The notes under the pieces were generated by a model. That model was not told where the DNA came from. It made no database searches and saw nothing but the letters and a program-made list of their open reading frames with translations. A stretch of DNA of 64,000 nucleotides from Massilia sp. 9096 (GTDB taxonomy: Bacteria > Pseudomonadota > Gammaproteobacteria > Burkholderiales > Burkholderiaceae_D): NCBI RefSeq assembly GCF_000745265.1, contig NZ_JQNN01000002.1:1-64000 (forward strand). Direction: 5' to 3'. Shown here one piece after another: positions 863 to 13,992 of this stretch (position 1 is its first letter; each line of letters starts with the position of its first letter). The position numbers and the translations under genes are program-made.

Positions 863-1429
863 TTGCAAAATTCGAGCAGCGGTCACTGCCCAACTGTCGA
901 GCGCATACGCGCACATCGATCGTACTATCCGGGCAATTAGTCACGACTTCCCGGCTTCCGTCGCATGATGCAGCAAACTTGTCACCTTGCCACGCTAGCC
1001 GCCGCGCGCCGTAACCACCTAGCATATGAAGCTTGCATTACGTCCCTGATCGTACTCACCTTTTGACGACATGCCGAATCTCCGCAGGATACATCGGCGA
1101 AAGCTCAGGACGTCTCTCGTCCATACACGCGCCAAGGCGTCTGTGCTCGTTCCAATTGGCAACACCTTCATGCCTATCGAGAACCATGTACGCGATTGAA
1201 CAGATTGCGGATGCGCTCAGGGGATAGGGCGCTGCGAATCAGGCTGGGTACCCCATCGTTCTGAGAACAACAGCCATGGCAGTAGCGTCCAATCTAGTAG
1301 GCGTCGCAACCACGTGTTCTATCGAGAGCGACATCGACTATTTGCTGTACAGGGGCTTATTTGGGAATGGCAGTGGGTACGTGCCCTGTGAGTCTCCGCA
1401 GTGTAGACGGTGCGTTCGCGCACGACACA

Positions 1430-2033
1430 GTCCCCGTAAAGGCTCACCCTAACGTCGTCTCCTACCTGGCGGGCTCACCTTTCGTCCGACACACGTTTAA
1501 TGAGGACCGCCACCTAGGCCTATTAGGCAACGAATACCATGTAAACCACATCGCACTGACCTGCATGACGCGATCAGTCGCACAGACTGGTGCCTGCGGC
1601 ATGCCACGCTGGTGGAACAACAGCCTCCGATGCCAAGGAAAGCACATCTCAGCAGCGGCAGTAGGACAGTCCCTGGCGAAGCTCACCTTATGGCCGATGC
1701 CATGTGGGCTGACTAAAGAGCGTCAGGTTTTCTCCGCATGCATCCAAGCAGAGCAGCAATAACCTGCGGGAAGACTGGAATGACCGTCATTGCATATGAA
1801 CGACGCACCGCCAGCATTGCGATGCTCATGCGATCTACACATCCCGTACATCCCGCTTCACGTAGACGCTCACCTTTCGATTTCAGCACGAGGCGTAGGC
1901 GCCCGTTTTTGCGACCGGACATTGGTAAATGGCCGCTAACACGTCGTACGCCCCACTATGGGCAGCGCACGTGCCCTGGTATGTCAAATTGATAGGTCAG
2001 GCCAGATGGTGAGTCCCTGTAGGCTCTCACCTT
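1430..2033 (-). repeat. Iterons in inverted orientation left of parB
   Basis: Three clear matches to the reverse complement of the origin iteron occur at 1430-1450, 1669-1689 and 2013-2033 (GTCCCTGTAGG...CTCACCTT). Degenerate versions are seen near 1459-1479 and 1857-1877. They face the opposite way to the iterons beside rep and lie on the other side of parAB. They could act in incompatibility or handcuffing copy control, or be the remains of an older origin half. Confidence 0.6.
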
Positions 2034-2350: not shown

Positions 2351-3424
2351 TCAACCAGACGTCTTCGACAACTTGTCCCTCTTAGGGAGCTCGAGGGTAC
2401 CAGCCAACTCCCGCAACGCCGCCATGGCGCGCTGCAGGGCAACATCGACGTCGACCCCATCTTCGACCTGAATAACGATATCGCGCGACTTCACTTGGAC
2501 GCGAAAGGCGGATTCACCGTTCTTGTCGCTGATGGTGCGTGGTGTCGGTGCCTTGGTGCGAACCCGCTTCGCCTCAAACGGCTTGAGCAGCACGGCGCGC
2601 AGCTCAGCTTGGTCCATCTGGGGTTTGTCAATCAACACCTCGGCGGAGCGCACGATCGTGTTCTCGCCATCTGGATGTTTGGCTAATGCCTCTTTGATGA
2701 CCCGCGCCTTGCGATAGGTGACAAGTTCCGGGTACTTCGCCATGAGTTCGAGCAGCGATACGGGCAAATCGAACAGGCTCAAACATTGAGACACGCGGGC
2801 TTGTGTGCAACCGAACACAGTTGCCACCTCAGCTTGCGTCGACGCGTAGCCTTCCTTCAATGCCGTCCGGTAGGCCAAGCCGCGTTCATAATCCGACAGC
2901 TTGACGTTGCTTTCGTTGTGGACCAGCGTCGCCAAACACGCGTCGCGGTCAGATAAGTGCATGACGCGGGCGTCAAGTTCGGACCAGCCAACTAGCCGTG
3001 CGGCGCGAACGCGGCGATGACCAGCGATCAGCTCGAATTTGCCGCTATCAAGCGCCCGAACCGTGATCGGTTCGTCTTGCCCACGGCCTTTTAAGGTTTC
3101 GCCGAGCAGTTGTAGTTCGGTCTCGTCATACTTTTTTCGCGGCTGATAGGGCGAGTCGACGATTAAGTGCAGCGGAATGCGGCGCGACGGCGACGTCACT
3201 TCTTCTACCGTCGGCGCAACCACGATCTTATCGGTCGGCTGACGTTCCTGTTGCTGGCTGTCACTCAACAGGTCGGTCAAGGATTTCGATGGACCGCTCG
3301 GTAAATCGTTCATATGCATCGGCGCGGTGGTGCGGCCAGGGCTACGCAGGCGTTCGGCCAAGGACGCATTGAAATCGGCCTCAGTTTGCTGGTGTTTCGT
3401 CACAAAATCTCCGTATCTATCCAT
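2351..3424 (-). CDS. parB: ParB-family partition protein
   Basis: Centromere-binding protein of the plasmid partition system, 357 aa. The N-terminal ParB/Srx-like CTP-binding fold covers about residues 80-175. It carries the substrate signature SPYQPRK (91-97) and the conserved GHRRVRAARL box (135-144; family form GERRxRA). A helix-turn-helix follows at about 195-220 (TQAEVATVFGCTQARVSQ). The C-terminal third should be the dimerisation region. The first ~75 residues are Gln/Ser/Pro-rich, as expected for the ParA-contacting arm. The gene starts 12 nt after the parA stop and is surely co-transcribed with it. The ATG at 3424 has only a weak ribosome-binding site, consistent with translational coupling. 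Confidence 0.95.
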   Translation of the reverse strand: MDRYGDFVTKHQQTEADFNASLAERLRSPGRTTAPMHMNDLPSGPSKSLTDLLSDSQQQERQPTDKIVVAPTVEEVTSPSRRIPLHLIVDSPYQPRKKYDETELQLLGETLKGRGQDEPITVRALDSGKFELIAGHRRVRAARLVGWSELDARVMHLSDRDACLATLVHNESNVKLSDYERGLAYRTALKEGYASTQAEVATVFGCTQARVSQCLSLFDLPVSLLELMAKYPELVTYRKARVIKEALAKHPDGENTIVRSAEVLIDKPQMDQAELRAVLLKPFEAKRVRTKAPTPRTISDKNGESAFRVQVKSRDIVIQVEDGVDVDVALQRAMAALRELAGTLELPKRDKLSKTSG

Positions 3425-3436
3425 GCCCAGCGCTGC

Positions 3437-4552
3437 TTACGCCACGCGCAGGCCTTCTTTCTGCGGGCTAAAGCTCAACATGCCCATTCGCTCAACCAAC
3501 TCACGAGTTGCCGCCCGTAACTCATCAGCAGGCGCACTTGTAGGGCGGGACAAGGCCAGTGGCAAGCCATCGTCTTCGTCAAGCACCTTCTTGAATTCTT
3601 CGCTTGAGCTGATCTGGTTGTCCATCCACGCTTCGGGGTACTTGCTGGTCAGTGCAATCACCTGGGCCGCGACCCGGACCCGCTTCGCGTCGAAGAAGTT
3701 GCCGAGTACGGACAACTGGGGGAACTTGCTATACGTGTTTTTCATCTCGCCGATGACGTCCGCGAGATACGACACCGACTTCGTGCTATAGCGCTCCATT
3801 GACACCGGCGCCACCGCGAAATCACTCGCGAGCAAGGCGCCGCGAGTCGTCTGGTTCTTCGCTGGCGGTGCGTCGAACATCACGATGTCATACTGGGAGA
3901 GATCGAGGTTCGGGTTGCGGCCGGACAGTCCCTCGTCAAGCCAGCGCGCAATCGCCAGTTCTGGCTTCTTGCCCATAATGGCATCCACCGTAAACAGCGC
4001 TTCGAGTCGGTCAAGCGTCACTTCTGACGGAATCAGGTGCGGGCCGTTTTCGCCGTAGGGCCTCTTGATCACGTCGGCGAGCGGTCGTACCGCACCATTT
4101 TGCTGCCACTGCGGTAACAAATGACCAAGGTGATGCTCGACACAGGTCGATTGTGCGAGCCCCGCGGCTGTGGCTTCTTCTGGTGTGAGTTCAGGGTCGT
4201 AACCGAACGAAATCGTGAGGTTGGCTTGGAAGTCGAGATCCACCACCAGTACGCGCAATCCCATCAGCGCAAGGATGCACGCGATGTTCGAGCTGATCGT
4301 CGTTTTGCCAACGCCCCCCTTAGGCGCATAAACCGTCAAAATACGTTTGAGCTTGGGAGCGAGGTTGTATTTGCGTGCGCGGTAAGCCGCCAAATCGAAG
4401 ACGTTTTCTACCGTAAAAATCCGTGTCTTTGGTCCACTTCCGCCTTGGCGCTCGATCTGCAGACTGGCCTCGTCCGCATCACGGCGTACCGAATCTACGC
4501 TAATCCCGAGCAGCTTTGCCACGCCTTGTACCTTGAATGTTTTACGTCCCAA
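3437..4552 (-). CDS. parA: ParA-family partition ATPase with N-terminal HTH
   Basis: Type Ia partition ATPase, 371 aa, that would move plasmid copies through ParB-stimulated ATP hydrolysis on the nucleoid. An N-terminal MerR-like HTH (VQGVAKLLGISVDSVRRD, residues 8-25) precedes the deviant Walker A KGGVGKTT (78-85), the A' strand VLVVDLDFQAN (about 115) and Walker B DIVMFDAPP (about 220). The HTH points to autoregulation at the TTGCAAGG repeats upstream. The proposed start is TTG at 4552, preceded by GGGGAG with a 6-nt spacer. The frame stays open upstream to a stop near 4590 with no ATG or GTG, so a slightly longer product from a rare codon cannot be excluded. Confidence 0.95.
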   Translation of the reverse strand: MGRKTFKVQGVAKLLGISVDSVRRDADEASLQIERQGGSGPKTRIFTVENVFDLAAYRARKYNLAPKLKRILTVYAPKGGVGKTTISSNIACILALMGLRVLVVDLDFQANLTISFGYDPELTPEEATAAGLAQSTCVEHHLGHLLPQWQQNGAVRPLADVIKRPYGENGPHLIPSEVTLDRLEALFTVDAIMGKKPELAIARWLDEGLSGRNPNLDLSQYDIVMFDAPPAKNQTTRGALLASDFAVAPVSMERYSTKSVSYLADVIGEMKNTYSKFPQLSVLGNFFDAKRVRVAAQVIALTSKYPEAWMDNQISSSEEFKKVLDEDDGLPLALSRPTSAPADELRAATRELVERMGMLSFSPQKEGLRVA

Positions 4553-4603
4553 GTCCGTCTCCCCGAAATTTGATGTCGTAATTTTCTCCTAACCAATCCT
4601 TCC

Positions 4604-4686
4604 GTGCAAGGAAAAGATCTACATTTCAGGATAAATCCTTGCAACAATCCCGGGTTACTAACTTTAAGCGCTTGCCTTGCAAGGAA
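4604..4686. promoter_or_regulatory. Candidate parA operator repeats
   Basis: Three related motifs lie upstream of parA: GTGCAAGGAA at 4604-4613, ATCCTTGCAA at 4635-4644, and the perfect palindrome CCTTGCAAGG at 4675-4684. Their spacing (about 31 and 40 bp) and position fit an operator for the HTH-containing ParA. The binding partner is inferred. Confidence 0.5.
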
Positions 4687-5262
4687 CGTTTACCCACTAA
4701 CGCTTAGGTTAAGGTGAGACCGTACAGGGACTTGCCTAATGAGCTTGTCGTATTGGAACAGCTTGCAGAATGTGGTGCAGTTGATCCGGTGCTAGCTGAA
4801 CTGGTACAGCAACGTTATGTCGTTTTCGCGTATTCGGGCAAAAGCCGAACGCGGTGTCTCAAAGGTGAACCCCTACAGGGACCTGTCTGTAGGGCGACCC
4901 GAGATCGCGTCGTGAGGCCGCCAACTGTAGAGCACGATCGGCGGCGTTCCTAAGGTGAGATTGGCCAGGGACTAGCTCACGCATGCGTGCGCGTAAAATC
5001 TCTTCTAGCCCCACTAGTCACCCGTCAGACGACAGCCAAGGTGAGCTTCCATAGGGACAGCGGATCGGAACTACCCCTTCCCAACTGCGCAGGTAAGGTG
5101 AGACCCTACAGGGAGTTAATCACGTGCTCGACGTTTGTTTGTGTATCCAGCGCAGCTAGCAGACCGACATGTCGGCAGAAAGTCATACGTCCAGTGAGGC
5201 AATATAAGGTCTGTGATGTTCTGTTGGGCGTCGTGTTGGCAAACCAATGTACATTGTGTACG

Positions 5263-5570
5263 TATTGAGAGGTTTTATTTGAAAAACAAAGTTAACCCCT
5301 GTTTACCTGTTTACGGTCGCTGAAACTCAGCAGCCATGCGGTTCTCCGCGGTTTGAGGTGAGACCGTACGGTCACTTCGGTGAGCTCATACAGGGACATT
5401 GGTGAGGTCTTCCGGGGAGGTCAAGGCTGTCGGGTGAGATGATGCAGGGAGACAAGGTGAGTGCATTCAGGTACCCATAACCTCAATGGTGAGTGTGAGC
5501 AGGGACGTGGAATGGCTTTGGTGAGCCGATACAGGGACTAGCGCATCGGCAGGTGAGCTTCGACGGGGAC
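5263..5570 (+). repeat. Origin block copy A (conserved box plus eight phased iterons)
   Basis: It begins with a conserved box (TATTGAG, then GAAAAACAAAGTTAACCC, then TTTACCTGTTTACGGTCGCTG). Eight iterons follow at start-to-start distances 22, 22, 32, 23, 32, 32 and 32 bp. The first iteron contains the perfect palindrome GACCGTACGGTC (5362-5373). Copy B at 5850-6156 has the same order and spacing. Confidence 0.75.
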
Positions 5571-5849
5571 ATAGCAGGCTGGTATCAGCGCACATTCAAG
5601 TGCCTAGTAACGGGTAACAGTCGGTCATAACAGGATGCGGACGTTCAGTCACGCCGATATACCCAAAACATAGCGAACAGGCCTCATCCATGCAGCCGAG
5701 CGTATTTGGAAACCGATACCGCATACTGCAGTTGTCCTCGATGATGCTGGCGATTGAGTCAGGGACCCAGCCTTCGCGCGTTACACCGTCATATTAGTCA
5801 GCTAGTAGCGGGTTAGGGGTTTTTGATCTAATGCCTAAAAACCCACATG

Positions 5850-6156
5850 TATTGAGTGGTTTTGGTTGAAAAACAAAGTTAACCCTGGTTTACCTGTTTA
5901 CGGTCGCTGGAAGCCAGTATCCATGCGGGTTGCACCAGATTGAGGTGAGACTGTCCAGTCACTTCGGTGAGATTTCACAGGGACATGGGTGAGACTGTAC
6001 AGGGACTGGGCGAGCGCCAGGTGAGAGAGGGCAGGAACCGAAGGTGAGCGGGTTCAGGTAGGTAGCGCACCAAAGGTGAGTGCGTCCGGGGACGAGCGGA
6101 AGAAATGGTGAGCATACACAGGGACCTTGATGCTGAAAGTGAGATCCTACGGGGAC
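5850..6156 (+). repeat. Origin block copy B (conserved box plus eight phased iterons)
   Basis: Second copy of the block at 5263-5570, offset by 587 bp. The box is nearly identical and the iterons follow at 22, 22, 32, 23, 32, 32 and 31 bp. The palindrome in the first iteron is GACTGTCCAGTC (5949-5960). Relative to copy A both arms changed together (CCG/CGG to CTG/CAG), so the dyad is largely kept. Confidence 0.75.
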
Positions 6157-6687
6157 CTCTGGTTGCTGACCGAGGACAACATTTTAAGGCGAACGGACTA
6201 TCAGCGGCGCTTAGTTTGATTGTCACCCGTATCGCTTGTTAAGGTGAGTGGTTTCAGGGGCTCAAACGCCAAACCGACCCGGAAGGTGAGATTGTACGGG
6301 GACCCCGTTGTAGCATCGGCTGCTGTTTGAACTGACGTTTTTGTGGTCTACGTGGACTTGGGCGTGTGTCTGCTACCGGCAACCCTGCGGCGAATGGTCC
6401 TGATCACGGTAGAAGGTGAGGGTCCACAGGGACCATATCGTCGCTCCGGGTCTCAAAGGTGAGCTTGTGCAGGGACATCCAAAATTAAGATGATCGGAAA
6501 CGCTGGTCATCACCATCACCTGGTGGCGTTTCGCCCTCGATGTTGTGCTTGCGGGCTCATCGTTTATGCGCCAGCCTTGCGCGCGTTCTCCGGATGGATT
6601 AAAGGTGAGCTTTTACGGTGACTCGGTATGCTGTCAGCGCTTGAAGGTGAGGAATTACAGGGAGACGATGATTGGTGAAAGCCACAT

Positions 6688-6707
6688 TTCACCCTTACTA
6701 AGGTGAA
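6688..6707. promoter_or_regulatory. Inverted half-iterons, probable rep operator
   Basis: TTCACC (6688-6693) and GGTGAA (6702-6707) form an inverted repeat with an 8-bp centre, ending 5 bp before the -35 box of rep. The arms match the AAGGTGA core of the iterons. In Rep_3/RepA plasmids, Rep dimers bind such inverted half-iterons to repress rep, so autoregulation is the likely role. Confidence 0.6.
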
Positions 6708-6712
6708 TACGC

Positions 6713-6742
6713 TTGACTCACTCCTGATAACTCATGTAATAA
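6713..6742 (+). promoter_or_regulatory. rep promoter (sigma-70 type)
   Basis: TTGACT (6713-6718), an 18-bp spacer and TAATAA (6737-6742). Transcription would start near 6749. That makes the TTG at 6749 an unlikely start codon and favours the GTG at 6794 with its purine-rich leader. Confidence 0.5.
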
Positions 6743-6793
6743 TGCACGTTGGCAACTGGTAAACGCGGCGTGGCGAGGACGGGGGAAGGGCAA

Positions 6794-8161
6794 GTGGCAG
6801 ACAAGAGCAAAGACACCGCTGCCGCTAGTGGCGATCTCGTCGACATGGCGAACAAGCCCCCAGCGCCACGTTCAGAGTTGGAGATCCGTAAGTCCAACGA
6901 AGCGATTGGTTTACGGGTCGTGTCGGGCCGACTAACCCTATTAAATCGCAAGGTCTTCAACGTCCTTATGTACCACGCCCAGCGCATTCGTAAGCTGGGA
7001 CAAGACGCGCCGATCGACACGCCAGCGGCGCAAAAATACTTTTGGGTGCCGCTCTCGGTCTTGGCCAGAAATGCCAGCTATGACAGCCGCGACATGCAGT
7101 TTCTGCGCGAGCAGATCGCAGAAATGCAAGACATCAAACTGCTGCTGGAGACTGATCGTCAGTGGACAAGTGAGCGTCTGATTGCGTCGGTCACGTTCGT
7201 CAATCCGAAGGGCCTACACAGCCGTAGCGGCCAAGTGTGGGTCGGGTTCGCCTTCCCGCCCGAAGTGCACGAAAGTGTGATGCAGCCGGAAACCTATACC
7301 CGGCTCAGCATTCACTACCAAGGCTTACTCAAATCAGGCACGGCGCTCGCACTGTACGAGTTGTGCCGACGTTATGCGACCAATCCATCGAAATTGACGT
7401 CGACGTACAGTGTCGAGCACTGGTACGGACTACTCACGGGTAACCCGATGCCGGAAAAACCAGAAGATCTCCCTGAGTACAAGTACTTCAAGCGGGACGT
7501 CCTCAAAAATGCCATCGCCGAAGTCAATCGCGTGACTGACATCGAGGTGGAACTCATCGAGCACAAGCTGGGCCGGCGCGTCCAGCAATTGCAGTTCCGC
7601 GTCGAGTTCAAGCCCGAGACCCAGAACGAACCACGCACCCCCTTTACGATCGACCTGAGCTTGCTCGAAAAGTTGATGGCCTTGGGCATGACTCAGCAAG
7701 AGGGCAGTAACGTCATCGGTGAGTATTCGGACGAGAAAATCAGCCAGGCCCTGGCAGTGGTCGAGGCGCGGATCAGCGCCGCCAGTGGCGGACCGATCCA
7801 TTCGAAGGTCGCGTATCTGCGCTGGGCATTAAAGAGCGATGCAAAACTGCCAGAAAAAAAGGCCGAACCAAAGGTCAAAAATGGTGTAGTGCCAGATGGC
7901 CCGACCTTGCTCGAGCGCTTTTTGGCTGCACGTGCCAAGCTCGCTCTGGACGTGTTCAAGGAAATGGATGCTGACCAGCGCACGGCGACCTACGAACAGT
8001 TCAAAGGGCAGGCCACCGGCAAAGTACCGACGCTCGATAAAGCACTCGAGCACGGTGTGACGCGTACCGCCCTCAGCCTATGGTACGCGGACGCCCTTTG
8101 GGGTGAACCGACGGTGGAAAAATTGTCCCACTTTGCGGACAAGAGTCAGGTCTTGATTTAA
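6794..8161 (+). CDS. Rep_3-family replication initiator
   Basis: Replication initiation protein expected to bind the upstream iterons and open the origin. The core ELEIRKSNEAIGL...LTLLNRKVFNVL (just after the N-terminus) opens the first winged-helix domain of Rep_3 (RepB/RepA) initiators. The segment TALALYELCRRYATNPSKLTSTYSVEHWYGLLTG is typical of that family, and KYFKRDVLKNAIAEVN leads into the second domain. The product is about 455 aa, longer than small-plasmid Rep proteins and like those of large betaproteobacterial plasmids; the C-terminal extension (after about 300) has no recognised domain. I chose GTG 6794 because GGGGGAAGGG precedes it and the promoter lies just upstream; TTG 6749 would add 15 residues. 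Confidence 0.9.
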   Translation: MADKSKDTAAASGDLVDMANKPPAPRSELEIRKSNEAIGLRVVSGRLTLLNRKVFNVLMYHAQRIRKLGQDAPIDTPAAQKYFWVPLSVLARNASYDSRDMQFLREQIAEMQDIKLLLETDRQWTSERLIASVTFVNPKGLHSRSGQVWVGFAFPPEVHESVMQPETYTRLSIHYQGLLKSGTALALYELCRRYATNPSKLTSTYSVEHWYGLLTGNPMPEKPEDLPEYKYFKRDVLKNAIAEVNRVTDIEVELIEHKLGRRVQQLQFRVEFKPETQNEPRTPFTIDLSLLEKLMALGMTQQEGSNVIGEYSDEKISQALAVVEARISAASGGPIHSKVAYLRWALKSDAKLPEKKAEPKVKNGVVPDGPTLLERFLAARAKLALDVFKEMDADQRTATYEQFKGQATGKVPTLDKALEHGVTRTALSLWYADALWGEPTVEKLSHFADKSQVLI

Positions 8162-8331: not shown

Positions 8332-8565
8332 TCATGCAGCCAGGACAGCTGCCCAGACTTCGGACGGAGTTTGCCCCTGAGTTGCCAGGGCTCGCAGGTC
8401 AAACTGGCCTTTGCGAATGCGATGCATGAGCTCAACGCCACGAATTGTCGTGGCAGCGGAAGCGAAGCTCTTCAGTCCGAGCATGACACCCAGCCTGGTC
8501 TTTATGTTGCGATGGTCCTGCTCGATCAGATTGTTCAGGTATTTTGACGAGCGAAGCTCCCTCAC
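8332..8565 (-). pseudogene. C-terminal fragment of an IS6-family transposase
   Basis: The 77-residue frame contains KYLNNLIEQDHRNIKTRL and GVELMHRIRKGQF, the end of the DDE domain and C-terminus of IS6/IS26-type transposases, including the catalytic Glu (IEQDH). The N-terminal HTH and both catalytic Asp residues are absent upstream, so this is a remnant. A more complete but mutated relative lies at 53005-53542. Confidence 0.85.
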
Positions 8566-8630: not shown

Positions 8631-9515
8631 TCAGCGCCGCACGCCTCGAGTGAGCATCGCCTCGGTCATGGAGGCAAGTCGATCGGTCATCGTCTGGATG
8701 TGGGACACGGCCAGGTGAGGCTCATTCGCGAGCAGCTGCTTATACAGCAGTGAAACGATCGGGATCGCGTCCACGGCGCTCACCGGTACCGAGACCGCCG
8801 TGCGATTGCGTTGGATGAGCCTGACGAAGTAGTGCGAGTCTTGGAACTCGATCCAAAGCGACTTGTCGTGCTCGCGACCATGACCGTCGAATTTCAACGA
8901 CCTTAGCTTGTTTTCGAGCAGCGCCAGCAGCTGGTAGCACTCCTGCACCGTGAGCTGGACCGTGATCTTGTTCGGCCAGTCGAACGCGCGGCGGCCGCCG
9001 GCGCCGCCCAGGGCGATCGTGCCCTCGATCTGGACCGTGTGCTGGTTGCCCTTTCTCGTGCACGCTTCGCTGATGCACAGCGCAGCGGACGAGCCGAAGA
9101 TGTGGAAGCTGTAGTACGGCGGCGCCGCCCGCTCCGCAGCTGGCGAAGAGGTGAGGGCGGGTACGACGCCCAGCTCGACCAGGTAGCGACGCGCACCGGC
9201 CGCGCGGGTGCTGCGCTGCGCGATCGCCTCGACGGCATCGAAGAACCGGCGCTGCTCCACGCGTGCGATCGCCACAAGCTCGTCGAGTGCTGCGCTGGCG
9301 CCCAAACCGCGCAACGTTGCGCGCACGCGCGGGTCGACCGCGCGCACCGTCGCCTCGAGCGCGTCACGCTGCGCAACGTCGCCCGCGGCGAACGCGCGCA
9401 GCGCCAGCCCAAAGCCTTTGCCCGCGTCGGACCTGGCCAGTTCGTGCAGCTGCTCGCGAGTCAACGCCGGCAGCTTGGCTTGGTCAAGAATAACAGCGAT
9501 TTCGGAAACTTTCAT
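8631..9515 (-). CDS. Conserved plasmid protein of unknown function
   Basis: A 294-aa soluble protein with no signal peptide or membrane segment. The N-terminal half (about 1-130) is Ala/Arg-rich and helical (LTREQLHELARSDAGKGFGLALRAF, then RATLRGLGASAALDELVAIARVEQRRF). The C-terminal half is more structured, with SFHIFGSSAALCISEA, ITVQLTVQECYQLLALLENKLRSLKF and a run of aromatic and charged residues. No catalytic motif is recognisable. It lies 38 nt beyond the tyrosine recombinase stop on the same strand, so the two may be one transcript and it could assist recombination or plasmid maintenance; that is a guess from position only. Confidence 0.7.
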   Translation of the reverse strand: MKVSEIAVILDQAKLPALTREQLHELARSDAGKGFGLALRAFAAGDVAQRDALEATVRAVDPRVRATLRGLGASAALDELVAIARVEQRRFFDAVEAIAQRSTRAAGARRYLVELGVVPALTSSPAAERAAPPYYSFHIFGSSAALCISEACTRKGNQHTVQIEGTIALGGAGGRRAFDWPNKITVQLTVQECYQLLALLENKLRSLKFDGHGREHDKSLWIEFQDSHYFVRLIQRNRTAVSVPVSAVDAIPIVSLLYKQLLANEPHLAVSHIQTMTDRLASMTEAMLTRGVRR

Positions 9516-9553
9516 TTATCGATCGACCGCATGCTAAGCCTGTCCCGTCCTGT

Positions 9554-10549
9554 TCACATCACTGCCTTTTTCGGACAGCCAGCAGCCAGTTCATAGATTT
9601 CTGTCGAGCGGTCAAGGGCGAGGCCGAGGTACTCTCTGACTTCCTCACGATCCACGCCCTCCTGTAATTTTCCCACTGCAAACGTGTTACGCAAGGTGCG
9701 AGCGCCCTGGCGCCCGACCTCGATGCCAGCGCGTTCGAACGTGGCCTTGACCTGGTCATAGACCGTTCCTGGTTCTAGCGGCTCACCCCTCACGTTCGAG
9801 GGAAACACCAGTGACCCGGGAATGTCGAGCTGCTTGCGCTCGATCAGCCAGGCTCGTAGCGCCACTGCACCGTAGTTGCGCAGGATCGTACTGTGCTCAT
9901 AGCTCGTGTCGTGTTTGCCTTCGGGCGTGATCCTGAGTGCGATATCGCCCTCGCCCAATGGATCGTCCACTTCCGTGATCTGCAGGCCTACGGCTTCGGC
10001 CACGCGAAGCCCGCTGAACAGGATCGTGGCCTGCATCGCGTGTGTACGGCGCTGCTTCCAGCCGAGCGGTTTGCGGTCGCTGCGCGTCCTGGTCGCCGGC
10101 CGCATCGGGGGCAGGGCGCTGACGAACAGGTCGACCTGATTGGCATCGAGCACGGCCATGCGCTTGTCTTTGCCGAGGTAGTGGTTGTCGGTGGCCAGTT
10201 TGAGTGCGATCGTGGCTGGATTAGGGGCGACGGCCAGATGTTCGAAGCAGCGTTCGATCAGCCGCAGGTAGCGTTGCGTGATGCCGCTGTCCTGCTCGCC
10301 CTTGCCGCGCAGCTGGCTGACGAAGCCCACCAGATCCTGTTCGCCCAGATGCGAGAACGCGCGGCGCTCAGCGTGCATCCAATATGCGAATTTATTGAAC
10401 ATGGCCTTGTAGACGTGGGCCGACCTTTTGGAAACCGGCGACGGGGTGCCCTGGCCGAGGCGTCGGCTGGTCTTGACGAAGTCGGGACTGTCGATGAAGG
10501 CCTGGAAAGCGGCGACAGGATTGGCGTCCCACTGGTTGGACACGGTCAT
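9554..10549 (-). CDS. Tyrosine recombinase with atypical catalytic histidines
   Basis: Site-specific recombinase of the XerC/D-integrase class, 331 aa, probably resolving plasmid multimers or acting on plasmid sites. A SAM-like core-binding domain covers about 15-110 and the catalytic domain about 130-325. Arg182 (SGLRVAEA), Lys212, Arg287 (RTLRNTF) and the nucleophile Tyr319 (STEIYELA) are in place. The usual HxLRH box reads R284-T-L-R-N, and the third His/Trp position (LGH) is Leu310, so the histidines that normally assist catalysis are replaced. It may be a divergent but active subfamily or a weakened enzyme. A sigma-70-like promoter lies upstream (10628-10656). Confidence 0.88.
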   Translation of the reverse strand: MTVSNQWDANPVAAFQAFIDSPDFVKTSRRLGQGTPSPVSKRSAHVYKAMFNKFAYWMHAERRAFSHLGEQDLVGFVSQLRGKGEQDSGITQRYLRLIERCFEHLAVAPNPATIALKLATDNHYLGKDKRMAVLDANQVDLFVSALPPMRPATRTRSDRKPLGWKQRRTHAMQATILFSGLRVAEAVGLQITEVDDPLGEGDIALRITPEGKHDTSYEHSTILRNYGAVALRAWLIERKQLDIPGSLVFPSNVRGEPLEPGTVYDQVKATFERAGIEVGRQGARTLRNTFAVGKLQEGVDREEVREYLGLALDRSTEIYELAAGCPKKAVM

Positions 10550-12946: not shown

Positions 12947-13992
12947 GGCTTTGTTGCGCAAATCAGCCCCGACCAGCGTACGGCCGTGAGGTCTGGTAGC
13001 CTGAACAGATGAAACCAGCTCCGCAGAAGTACCGCACGACCAACTGGAAGACGTACAACGAAGCGCTCAAGGCACGCGGCTCGCTGCTCATCTGGCTTGA
13101 TCCGACGATGAACTGGCATGGTCAGCCGAGCGGCAAGCGTGGGCGCAGCCAGACGTTCAGCGACGAGGCAATCCAGTTCTGTCTGAGCATCAAGTGCCTA
13201 TTCAATTTGCCGCTGCGCCAGGCCATGGGCATGACGCAAAGCATGCTGCGCCTGGCCGGGCTGGACTGGCCGGCACCGGACTTCAGTACGATCAGCCGGC
13301 GGCAGAAAACGCTGCAAGTGGCGATCGGGGCAGTACCGACCACGACGGGCTTGCATCTGCTGGTGGACAGCACAGGCATCAAGATGCTGGGCGAAGGCGA
13401 ATGGAAGAGGAAAAAGCATGGCGCAGACTACCGGCGCCAATGGCGCAAGGTGCACCTCGGAATCGACGCGTCCACGCTCGAAATCCGTGCCATGGAGGTG
13501 ACCGATAACAGCATCGGCGATGCACCTGTCCTGCCGGGGCTGCTCGACCAGATTGCTGCCGATGAGCGCATTGCCAGCGTCAGCGGCGACGGCGCGTACG
13601 ACACGAAGGACTGCCATGAGGCCATTGCTTTGCGCGAAGCGCATGCCATCATCCCGACCCGAAAGAACGCCAAACCCTGGAAGACCAATCGCCGCGGCGC
13701 GGACGCCCGCAACGAGATTCTGCACACGACACGCAGACTGGGCCGGGCGATCTGGAAAAAATGGAGCGGCTACCACCGGCGCAGCCTTGTCGAAACCAAA
13801 ATGCGCTGCTTCAAGCTGCTGGGCGAACGCGTCATGGCGCGTGATTTTGACCGTCAGGTCGCTGAGCTACAGGTACGAGCTGCCGTGCTGAACCGCTTTA
13901 CTCGGCTGGGTACCCCGATGACGGTCCCAGTGTTATAAAACGAACTACAAATAGCGTCAGCTCGGCCTTTGCTTGATTTGCTCAACAAAGCC
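12947..13992 (+). mobile_element. IS5-family (IS903 group) element, copy 1
   Basis: 1046 bp with terminal repeats GGCTTTGTTGCGCAAATC (left) and GGCTTTGTTGAGCAAATC (right, reverse complement), 17 of 18 matching and IS903-like. One transposase gene fills it. The 9-bp flanks (CTTGAGCGT and GTTTGCTAT) do not match, so there is no target duplication. Copy 2 at 45482-46527 has the same length and orientation and appears identical. Confidence 0.95.
13009..13938 (+). CDS. IS5/IS903-type transposase (copy 1)
   Basis: DDE transposase of 309 aa, full length for the IS903 group. The N-terminal region KYRTTNWKTYNEALKARGSL is the group signature. Catalytic residues are visible as Asp120 (LLVDSTG), Asp194 (SGDGAYDTK) and Glu262 in the YREK-like context SLVETKMR. 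The ATG is 62 bp inside the left repeat. The frame is intact and the protein equals that of copy 2, so the element may be active. Confidence 0.95.
   Translation: MKPAPQKYRTTNWKTYNEALKARGSLLIWLDPTMNWHGQPSGKRGRSQTFSDEAIQFCLSIKCLFNLPLRQAMGMTQSMLRLAGLDWPAPDFSTISRRQKTLQVAIGAVPTTTGLHLLVDSTGIKMLGEGEWKRKKHGADYRRQWRKVHLGIDASTLEIRAMEVTDNSIGDAPVLPGLLDQIAADERIASVSGDGAYDTKDCHEAIALREAHAIIPTRKNAKPWKTNRRGADARNEILHTTRRLGRAIWKKWSGYHRRSLVETKMRCFKLLGERVMARDFDRQVAELQVRAAVLNRFTRLGTPMTVPVL

Follow-up and report, generated by a model that had tools for sequence, protein, structure and literature searches.

A putative origin module with conserved iteron spacing is duplicated upstream of a Rep_3 gene in Massilia

The window analysed here is the initial 64 kb of contig 2 (155,828 bp) of the Massilia sp. 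9096 genome (5.71 Mb, two contigs). In a 2.2-kb region without evident gene, located between a Rep_3 replication initiator gene (rep) and the partition genes parA-parB, we find two blocks, A and B, each of which consists of a leader and eight direct 19-bp iterons of the form GGTGAGN6C[AG]GGGAC, upstream of rep. Sequence comparison establishes the anatomy of these blocks, their doubling, the fixed spacing of their iterons and the conservation of both leaders across five plasmids of one Rep clade (ten blocks). On balance, and with modest confidence, we read the blocks as a tandem pair of opening-competent Rep origins, the additional iterons serving copy control and the firing of each block being a prediction. 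With the iterons of each block numbered as slots 1 to 8, the components are:

5265..5269, plus strand: TTGAG box of block A, 92 bp before slot 1
5270..5315, plus strand: AT-rich leader of block A with GTTAAC/GTTTAC repeats, predicted unwinding element, stability minimum
5335..5341, plus strand: CATGCGG element of block A between leader and slot 1, in all ten clade leaders
5357..5570, plus strand: eight 19-bp iterons of block A, starting at 5357, 5379, 5401, 5433, 5456, 5488, 5520 and 5552
5852..5856, plus strand: TTGAG box of block B, 92 bp before slot 1
5857..5902, plus strand: AT-rich leader of block B, predicted unwinding element, third least stable 40-bp stretch
5922..5928, plus strand: CATGCGG element of block B, in all ten clade leaders
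5944..6156, plus strand: eight iterons of block B, starting at 5944, 5966, 5988, 6020, 6043, 6075, 6107 and 6138

The start-to-start steps are 22/22/32/23/32/32/32 bp in block A and 22/22/32/23/32/32/31 bp in block B, which confirms the starts and spacings given by an earlier sequence-only reading of this DNA. Its claim of a duplicated origin block is also borne out. Both blocks possess a leader and share 145 nt at 83% identity (leader and first iterons). The least stable 40-bp stretches of positions 4561-6760 start at 5246 and 5273 (47.1 kcal/mol; mean 57.6, sd 3.6), and leader B reaches 49.4 kcal/mol at 5860, so that by instability the two leaders rank first and third in this region. With up to three mismatches, the window holds 40 iteron matches compared to 15.0 ± 4.4 in shuffled sequences, none of which (0/100) reaches 40. 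At least 15 further iterons lie outside the blocks, five upstream, six downstream in three pairs, and four on the minus strand beyond parB:

4713..5115, plus strand: five dispersed iterons upstream of block A, starting at 4713, 4864, 4954, 5040 and 5097
6243..6303, plus strand: iteron pair 6243/6285, 42 bp apart
6415..6476, plus strand: iteron pair 6415/6458, 43 bp apart
6604..6664, plus strand: iteron pair 6604/6646, 42 bp apart, closest to rep
1042..2031, minus strand: four dispersed iterons beyond parB, starting at 1042, 1430, 1669 and 2013

A Rep of the same clade (E<=1e-60) occurs in 5 of the 62 genomes of the genus, source genome included. The four close relatives, Massilia sp. H6 (L002), M. 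litorea (L003), M. brevitalea (L034) and Massilia sp. Leaf139 (L036), have Reps that are 86-91% identical, and a search of their plasmids for the double block found it in all four, so that 5/5 plasmids of the Rep clade hold both blocks, in the same order and orientation. A lack of spacing conservation in related plasmids would have spoken against the sequence-only reading, and the opposite was found: slots 1-5 stand at offsets 0, 22, 44, 76 and 99 in 10/10 blocks, slot 6 at 131 in nine and 130 in one, slot 7 at 163-165 and slot 8 at 194-196, and no slot is lost in any of the ten blocks. The outer distances drift, from 587 to 824 bp between A and B and from 529 to 656 bp between B and rep. Iteron pairs 40-43 bp apart between block B and rep are also present in L002, L034 and L036, with weaker copies in L003. 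We also observe three to four dispersed iterons beyond parB, oriented opposite to the origin iterons, in the window (1042-2031, minus strand) and in both relatives with sufficient flank, L002 (2465-3352, minus strand) and L003 reversed (2403-2970, minus strand).

Across the clade blocks, linkers have a mean identity of 44-47% and iteron centres 41-43%, compared to 88-89% for the iteron arms, and the four-fold sites of rep are 36-48% identical. As the spacing was kept while linkers and four-fold sites diverged, these comparisons argue for selection on length and indicate that the iteron spacing is under selection, as the sequence-only reading had proposed; the recurrence of the core in single copy in distant relatives (see below) points the same way. 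Blocks A and B of the same plasmid are on average no closer to each other than two blocks taken from separate plasmids (identity of iteron arms 88.7 vs 88.3%, of linkers 44.3 vs 43.7%), suggesting that, measured against neutral change, the doubling is old. It is therefore highly improbable that the second block is a passive, functionless duplication: despite the age of the doubling, slots 1-8 and the spacing of slots 1-5 were kept in ten blocks, even if the lack of resolution of the block tree would be compatible with such an origin.

The sequence-only reading had further described a dyad in slot 1 whose two arms changed together. In the window, the dyad itself occurs in either block, with 6 and 5 of the 6 pairs formed. 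Within the clade, it reaches at least four pairs in only 6/10 blocks, with a mean of 3.7 of 6 pairs compared to 0.9-2.6 in other slots, and slot-1 centres vary among 23 other blocks, so the dyad appears to be a weak, minor trait of the clade. Its co-variation is likewise weak, the C-G/T-A co-change not exceeding chance for so few sequences (hand estimate, ten sequences).

With a matrix built from the clade repeats, we scanned 93 distinct upstream regions of 3.5 kb each, four of them shorter (for L041, the scan covers just 1,220 bp); a second block located farther upstream than 3.5 kb would escape detection. Six replicons show two strong positions, 17 show one (score >=67) and 70 score lower. 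The six doubles are the five clade plasmids and locus L120 from genome G342, i.e., 6/23 of the replicons clearly holding the grid, in agreement with the claim that a double block is unusual. The 17 single-grid replicons, some of them near-identical, belong to Janthinobacterium, Acidovorax, another Comamonadaceae plasmid, Noviherbaspirillum, and metagenome-assembled and other relatives, and hold the 22/22/32/22-23 core once. When the 12 orders of the four steps were compared in 12 single-block relatives, which had been chosen for holding the grid, the true order scored 91.2 on average and the next 47.1, the best of 300 random spacing sets scoring -1.6. In the double-block and single-block groups alike, 22/22/32/23 outscores the other 11 orders. 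The TTGAG box is found 86-94 bp before slot 1 in 32/33 blocks, some near-identical.

These single blocks bear on the possibility that A and B form one large origin, in which both arrays are filled and looped before a leader opens. The presence of both blocks in 5/5 clade plasmids, in the same order and orientation, is in line with this idea, which we nevertheless find unlikely given that the distance between the blocks ranges from 587 to 824 bp and that relatives whose Rep is of this kind carry a single block.

The grid extends to more divergent loci. In a test of the iteron 5' half on 25 distant loci, some of which are one locus under two ids, 10 keep 5 or 6 of 6 slots and 15 keep at most 4; slot 5 was allowed at two offsets and slot 6 at five, and the best value among 20 shuffles each was 4. 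Altered iterons keep their GGTGAG half on the grid in L045 and L047 (GTGAAC-type), L048 and L051 (GGGTAAC-type) and L030 (TGTGAG-type), and the motif is displaced by 1-2 bp in L046 and L049. Locus L030 comes from a genome of the same genus (G361), which combines a diverged Rep (36%) and TGTGAG-type iterons with 5/6 grid slots kept. A distant blastn search of the blocks returned two Massilia records and four chance-level matches, and a search of viral contigs a single match at 28%.

The slots of the array also differ from one another. Iteron centres agree by slot across blocks (20.24 vs 14.58 ± 0.46 for within-block slot shuffles; 0/2000), and the signal survives dropping any one slot, which suggests that the slots have individual identities, with common descent contributing to the signal. 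Slot 5 is distinctive and retains GGAT in most lineages: in 23 non-clade blocks, chosen as clearly on the grid and freed of near-duplicates, its centre begins with TGGA[TC] in 18 and NGGA in 22, compared to 3 and 4 of 113 for the other slots, and in the clade the same motifs occur in 2/10 and 6/10 blocks, respectively. Several lineages have GTGGAT[A/T] at slot 5, and GTGGATA resembles the core of the DnaA box (TTATCCACA). The Burkholderia version, CGGATT, does not, and its lack of a GTGGAT core weakens this interpretation, so slot 5 as a DnaA site is only a lead. At two mismatches, three DnaA-box matches occur in 2/10 clade blocks, without a common position. In 8/20 other loci, a DnaA box is found at +152 to +166 (five perfect, three with one mismatch), with none there in 12; clade slots 7 and 8 fill this zone.

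The 70 low scorers of the grid scan are mostly Burkholderia, Paraburkholderia and Caballeronia, and 55 loci, L058-L112 (many from closely related species and one from a Methylobacillus contig), were searched for chains of half-sites. Five phased half-sites in a strong chain are present in 54/55 of these Burkholderia-type loci and in 0/55 shuffles. The steps of the best chain, counted over all 55, are 22/22/22/22 in 31, 22/23/22/22 in 23 and 22/22/23/22 in one. TTGAG lies 80-100 bp before slot 1 in 48/55, the slot 5 centre is CGGATT in 32/55, and many loci have the module at about -1400 to -1530 relative to rep. This search overturned the view that Burkholderia-type origins lack the module, which the clade matrix had missed and for which a consensus scan had given dispersed copies. 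As the step between slots 3 and 4 corresponds to two turns in the Burkholderia-type loci and three in the window, the geometry changes by a whole helical turn.

A more speculative extension, which we regard as rather doubtful, is that many Burkholderiales plasmids and Burkholderia-type second chromosomes share one origin grammar, comprising the TTGAG box, the AT-rich leader, steps altered solely by whole helical turns, slot identities, a special slot-5 GGAT and possibly a composite Rep/DnaA site, and that the twin module of Massilia offsets a lost DnaA input. If so, slot 5 would have drifted in Massilia, iterons would replace the downstream DnaA box of the Janthinobacterium type, and the origin would be driven by Rep.

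The initiator and the partition proteins are encoded at:

6794..8161, plus strand: Rep_3 replication initiator (PF01051, 26.3 bits, cut-off 22.4; PF21205, 39.7, cut-off 21.1)
3437..4552, minus strand: ParA partition ATPase (PF13614, E 9.5e-29)
2351..3424, minus strand: ParB partition protein (PF02195, E 4.8e-17; TIGR00180 above cut-off)

The GTG start of rep at 6794 was chosen by comparison with annotated relatives, the alternative being a TTG at 6749. By sequence, Rep resembles the R6K pi protein (2nra, E 8.5e-4), in which the WH2 domain contacts GAG (PMC4980987). Outside the clade WH2 remains 66-77% identical, while WH1 drops to 27-46% in six relatives with GGTGAG retained and the 3' half of the iteron altered. 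In L045, L047, L048, L051 and L030, whose iterons are altered, WH2 is 66-73% and WH1 28-46% identical. By the R6K contact, WH2 would sit on GGTGAG and WH1 on the changing 3' half, which is the simplest reading of these sequences. The C-terminal ~186 residues of Rep are without a Pfam match and are 21-37% identical outside the clade, compared to 66-77% for WH2.

We considered whether the repeats might instead bind a different protein, either ParB or a regulator, since they occur to either side of parAB in addition to flanking rep. This seems most improbable: the repeats adjoin AT-rich DNA and rep, they are similar to the iterons on B. cenocepacia chromosome 2 (PMC4948915), the half that varies changes along with the WH1 domain of Rep, and the parS sites described for Burkholderiales are 16-bp palindromes (PMC5450999). 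Inverted TTGCAAGG-type repeats at 4605-4643 and 4675-4684, just upstream of parA, are a candidate par operator or centromere site.

Rep binding, melting, handcuffing and low copy number are attributed to this system by analogy with the Rep_3 family. Each module is composed of the TTGAG box, the predicted AT-rich unwinding element, a short conserved element and 19-bp iterons at steps of about two or three turns. Rep monomers would use WH2 to hold GGTGAG and WH1 to hold the 3' half, and would load cooperatively along the phased array. The resulting complex would melt the adjoining AT-rich leader, where the helicase would enter. Either module could serve as origin, both staying opening-competent, and the parallel arrays, together with the dispersed iterons, would titrate Rep, whose bridging of iterons (handcuffing) would keep the copy number of this large replicon low.

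The strongest competitor, which we consider appreciably less probable than two origins, holds that only one of the blocks acts as origin, the other being an array of the incC/incA type that controls copy number, with Rep pairing the two slot for slot, as their common spacing would permit. A control array needs iterons only. The TTGAG box, the AT-rich leader and CATGCGG are instead kept in both blocks of five plasmids; leaders are 73-76% identical among the ten blocks, and their conservation is equal for A (A/A 74.7%) and B (B/B 72.7%). Each block has a TTGAG box and an AT-rich element of its own and thus has the appearance of a full origin, not of an incC-type control array. The position of both blocks upstream of rep also differs from FIA and FIB, i.e., the incC/incA-type arrangement was not found. 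Some leaders look worn, as a control array might allow, and the worn leader is not consistently that of the same block.

Several observations weigh against two opening-competent origins. The leader cores of L034B, L002B, L003B and L036A look worn by eye, so one block may be secondary in a given plasmid. FIA handcuffs oriV to incC, and FIB probably does likewise with its downstream iterons (PMC11983097). The stretches at 4608 and 6703 roughly match leader B in instability. A DnaA box is said to be required at plasmid iteron origins (PMC5043065), and with at most one mismatch no such box was found in the 2.3 kb before rep in the window, L003, L034 and L036, L002 having one; more degenerate boxes may be present. 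The low identity of WH1 may follow overall divergence, as the C-terminal part of Rep falls too, and the trees do not settle the relation of A and B. Lastly, the helical phasing put forward by the sequence-only reading holds near 10.8 bp (R 0.95) and fails at the canonical 10.5 bp (R 0.36); a helical interpretation therefore requires that the DNA be wrapped or slightly underwound. When helical repeats of 10.2-11.0 bp are considered, the eight iteron starts reach R=0.961, a value equalled by 5/5000 random spacing sets (20-34 bp). That plasmid iterons are phased, and that disturbing the phase costs function or cooperativity, is already established (PMC5043065; PMC4980987).

The doubling probably arose twice. 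The Rep tree places L120 with Janthinobacterium-type replicons (0.989), and the two L120 blocks, at -1201 and -430 before rep, group together (0.987); both have a Janthinobacterium-type leader (74.7% alike), and slot 3 of block B is below threshold. In a FastTree analysis of 24 blocks, the ten clade blocks form a group (0.996) in which A and B are intermixed. Among 24 user trees, each of which assumes that the window and L034 are sisters, the lnL is -1648.9 for the best ancestral A/B split and -1653.0 for the best within-plasmid pairing, neither kind being rejected as a whole, and the free tree pairs L002A with L002B (84) and block B of the window with L034B (65). In the closest pair, the window and L034, the linkers agree at 15 of 23 bases between the A blocks and at 16 of 23 between the B blocks, which is above average and points to orthology there. 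For A and B of the clade, the layout favours a single duplication.

Concerning the surroundings, a tyrosine recombinase and a neighbouring gene without annotated function adjoin rep in the window (8631-10549, minus strand) and in two related replicons, L003 (377-2267) and L113 (7390-8788). Reading frames at 8332-8565 (minus strand) and 13009-13938 (plus strand) are presumably transposase-like. The cumulative GC skew rises from near 4 kb, as would suit an origin in this region, with the leftward view limited to 4 kb.

Natural origins rarely reveal which geometry is under selection. Here, selection on geometry can be separated from selection on sequence, because ten blocks keep the spacing, their linkers diverge, and distant single blocks keep the core. 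The whole-turn difference to Burkholderia-type second chromosomes provides a ready series for testing how initiator arrays open DNA, and two complete, equally conserved modules make alternation, backup or mutual restraint of twin origins testable. In the parts of the literature that were searched, subscription literature being outside the scope, we found no description of the doubled module or of the grid.

The window combines an adjacent WH1-WH2 initiator, phased direct iterons and an AT-rich element at both blocks, as found in Rep_3 iteron-type origins. It shares the initiator fold family, the phased direct iterons and the flanking AT-rich element with P1, F, RK2 and R6K (PMC5043065, PMC4980987). 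These origins contain 2-7 iterons each (PMC4980987), whereas the window has two eight-iteron modules and at least 15 more iterons, and a search at up to one mismatch gave no DnaA box close to its blocks. F (FIA oriV/incC) and FIB likewise have two iteron groups that may interact through Rep, but their controlling group is downstream of rep (PMC11983097), while both groups of the window lie upstream, in the same orientation and with their own leaders. On Vibrio chromosome 2, which uses RctB, the ori2-min array is similarly accompanied by a nearby ori2-inc with more initiator sites; in contrast to block A or B, ori2-inc is a regulator and not a second full module (PMC6090056). The Burkholderia-type second-chromosome origin, as on B. 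cenocepacia chromosome 2, has the same TTGAG box, AT-rich leader and phased half-site array, with a Rep about 33-35% identical to that of the window. In reverse complement, the iteron published for B. cenocepacia chromosome 2 is aaAGGTGAGgtTTTTCGGGag (PMC4948915), which has the GGTGAG half in common with ours. The Burkholderia-type steps of 22/22-23/22/22, compared to 22/22/32/23 in the window, are one turn shorter between slots 3 and 4, and the further repeats are irregular, mostly 44-123 bp apart in the five loci looked at.
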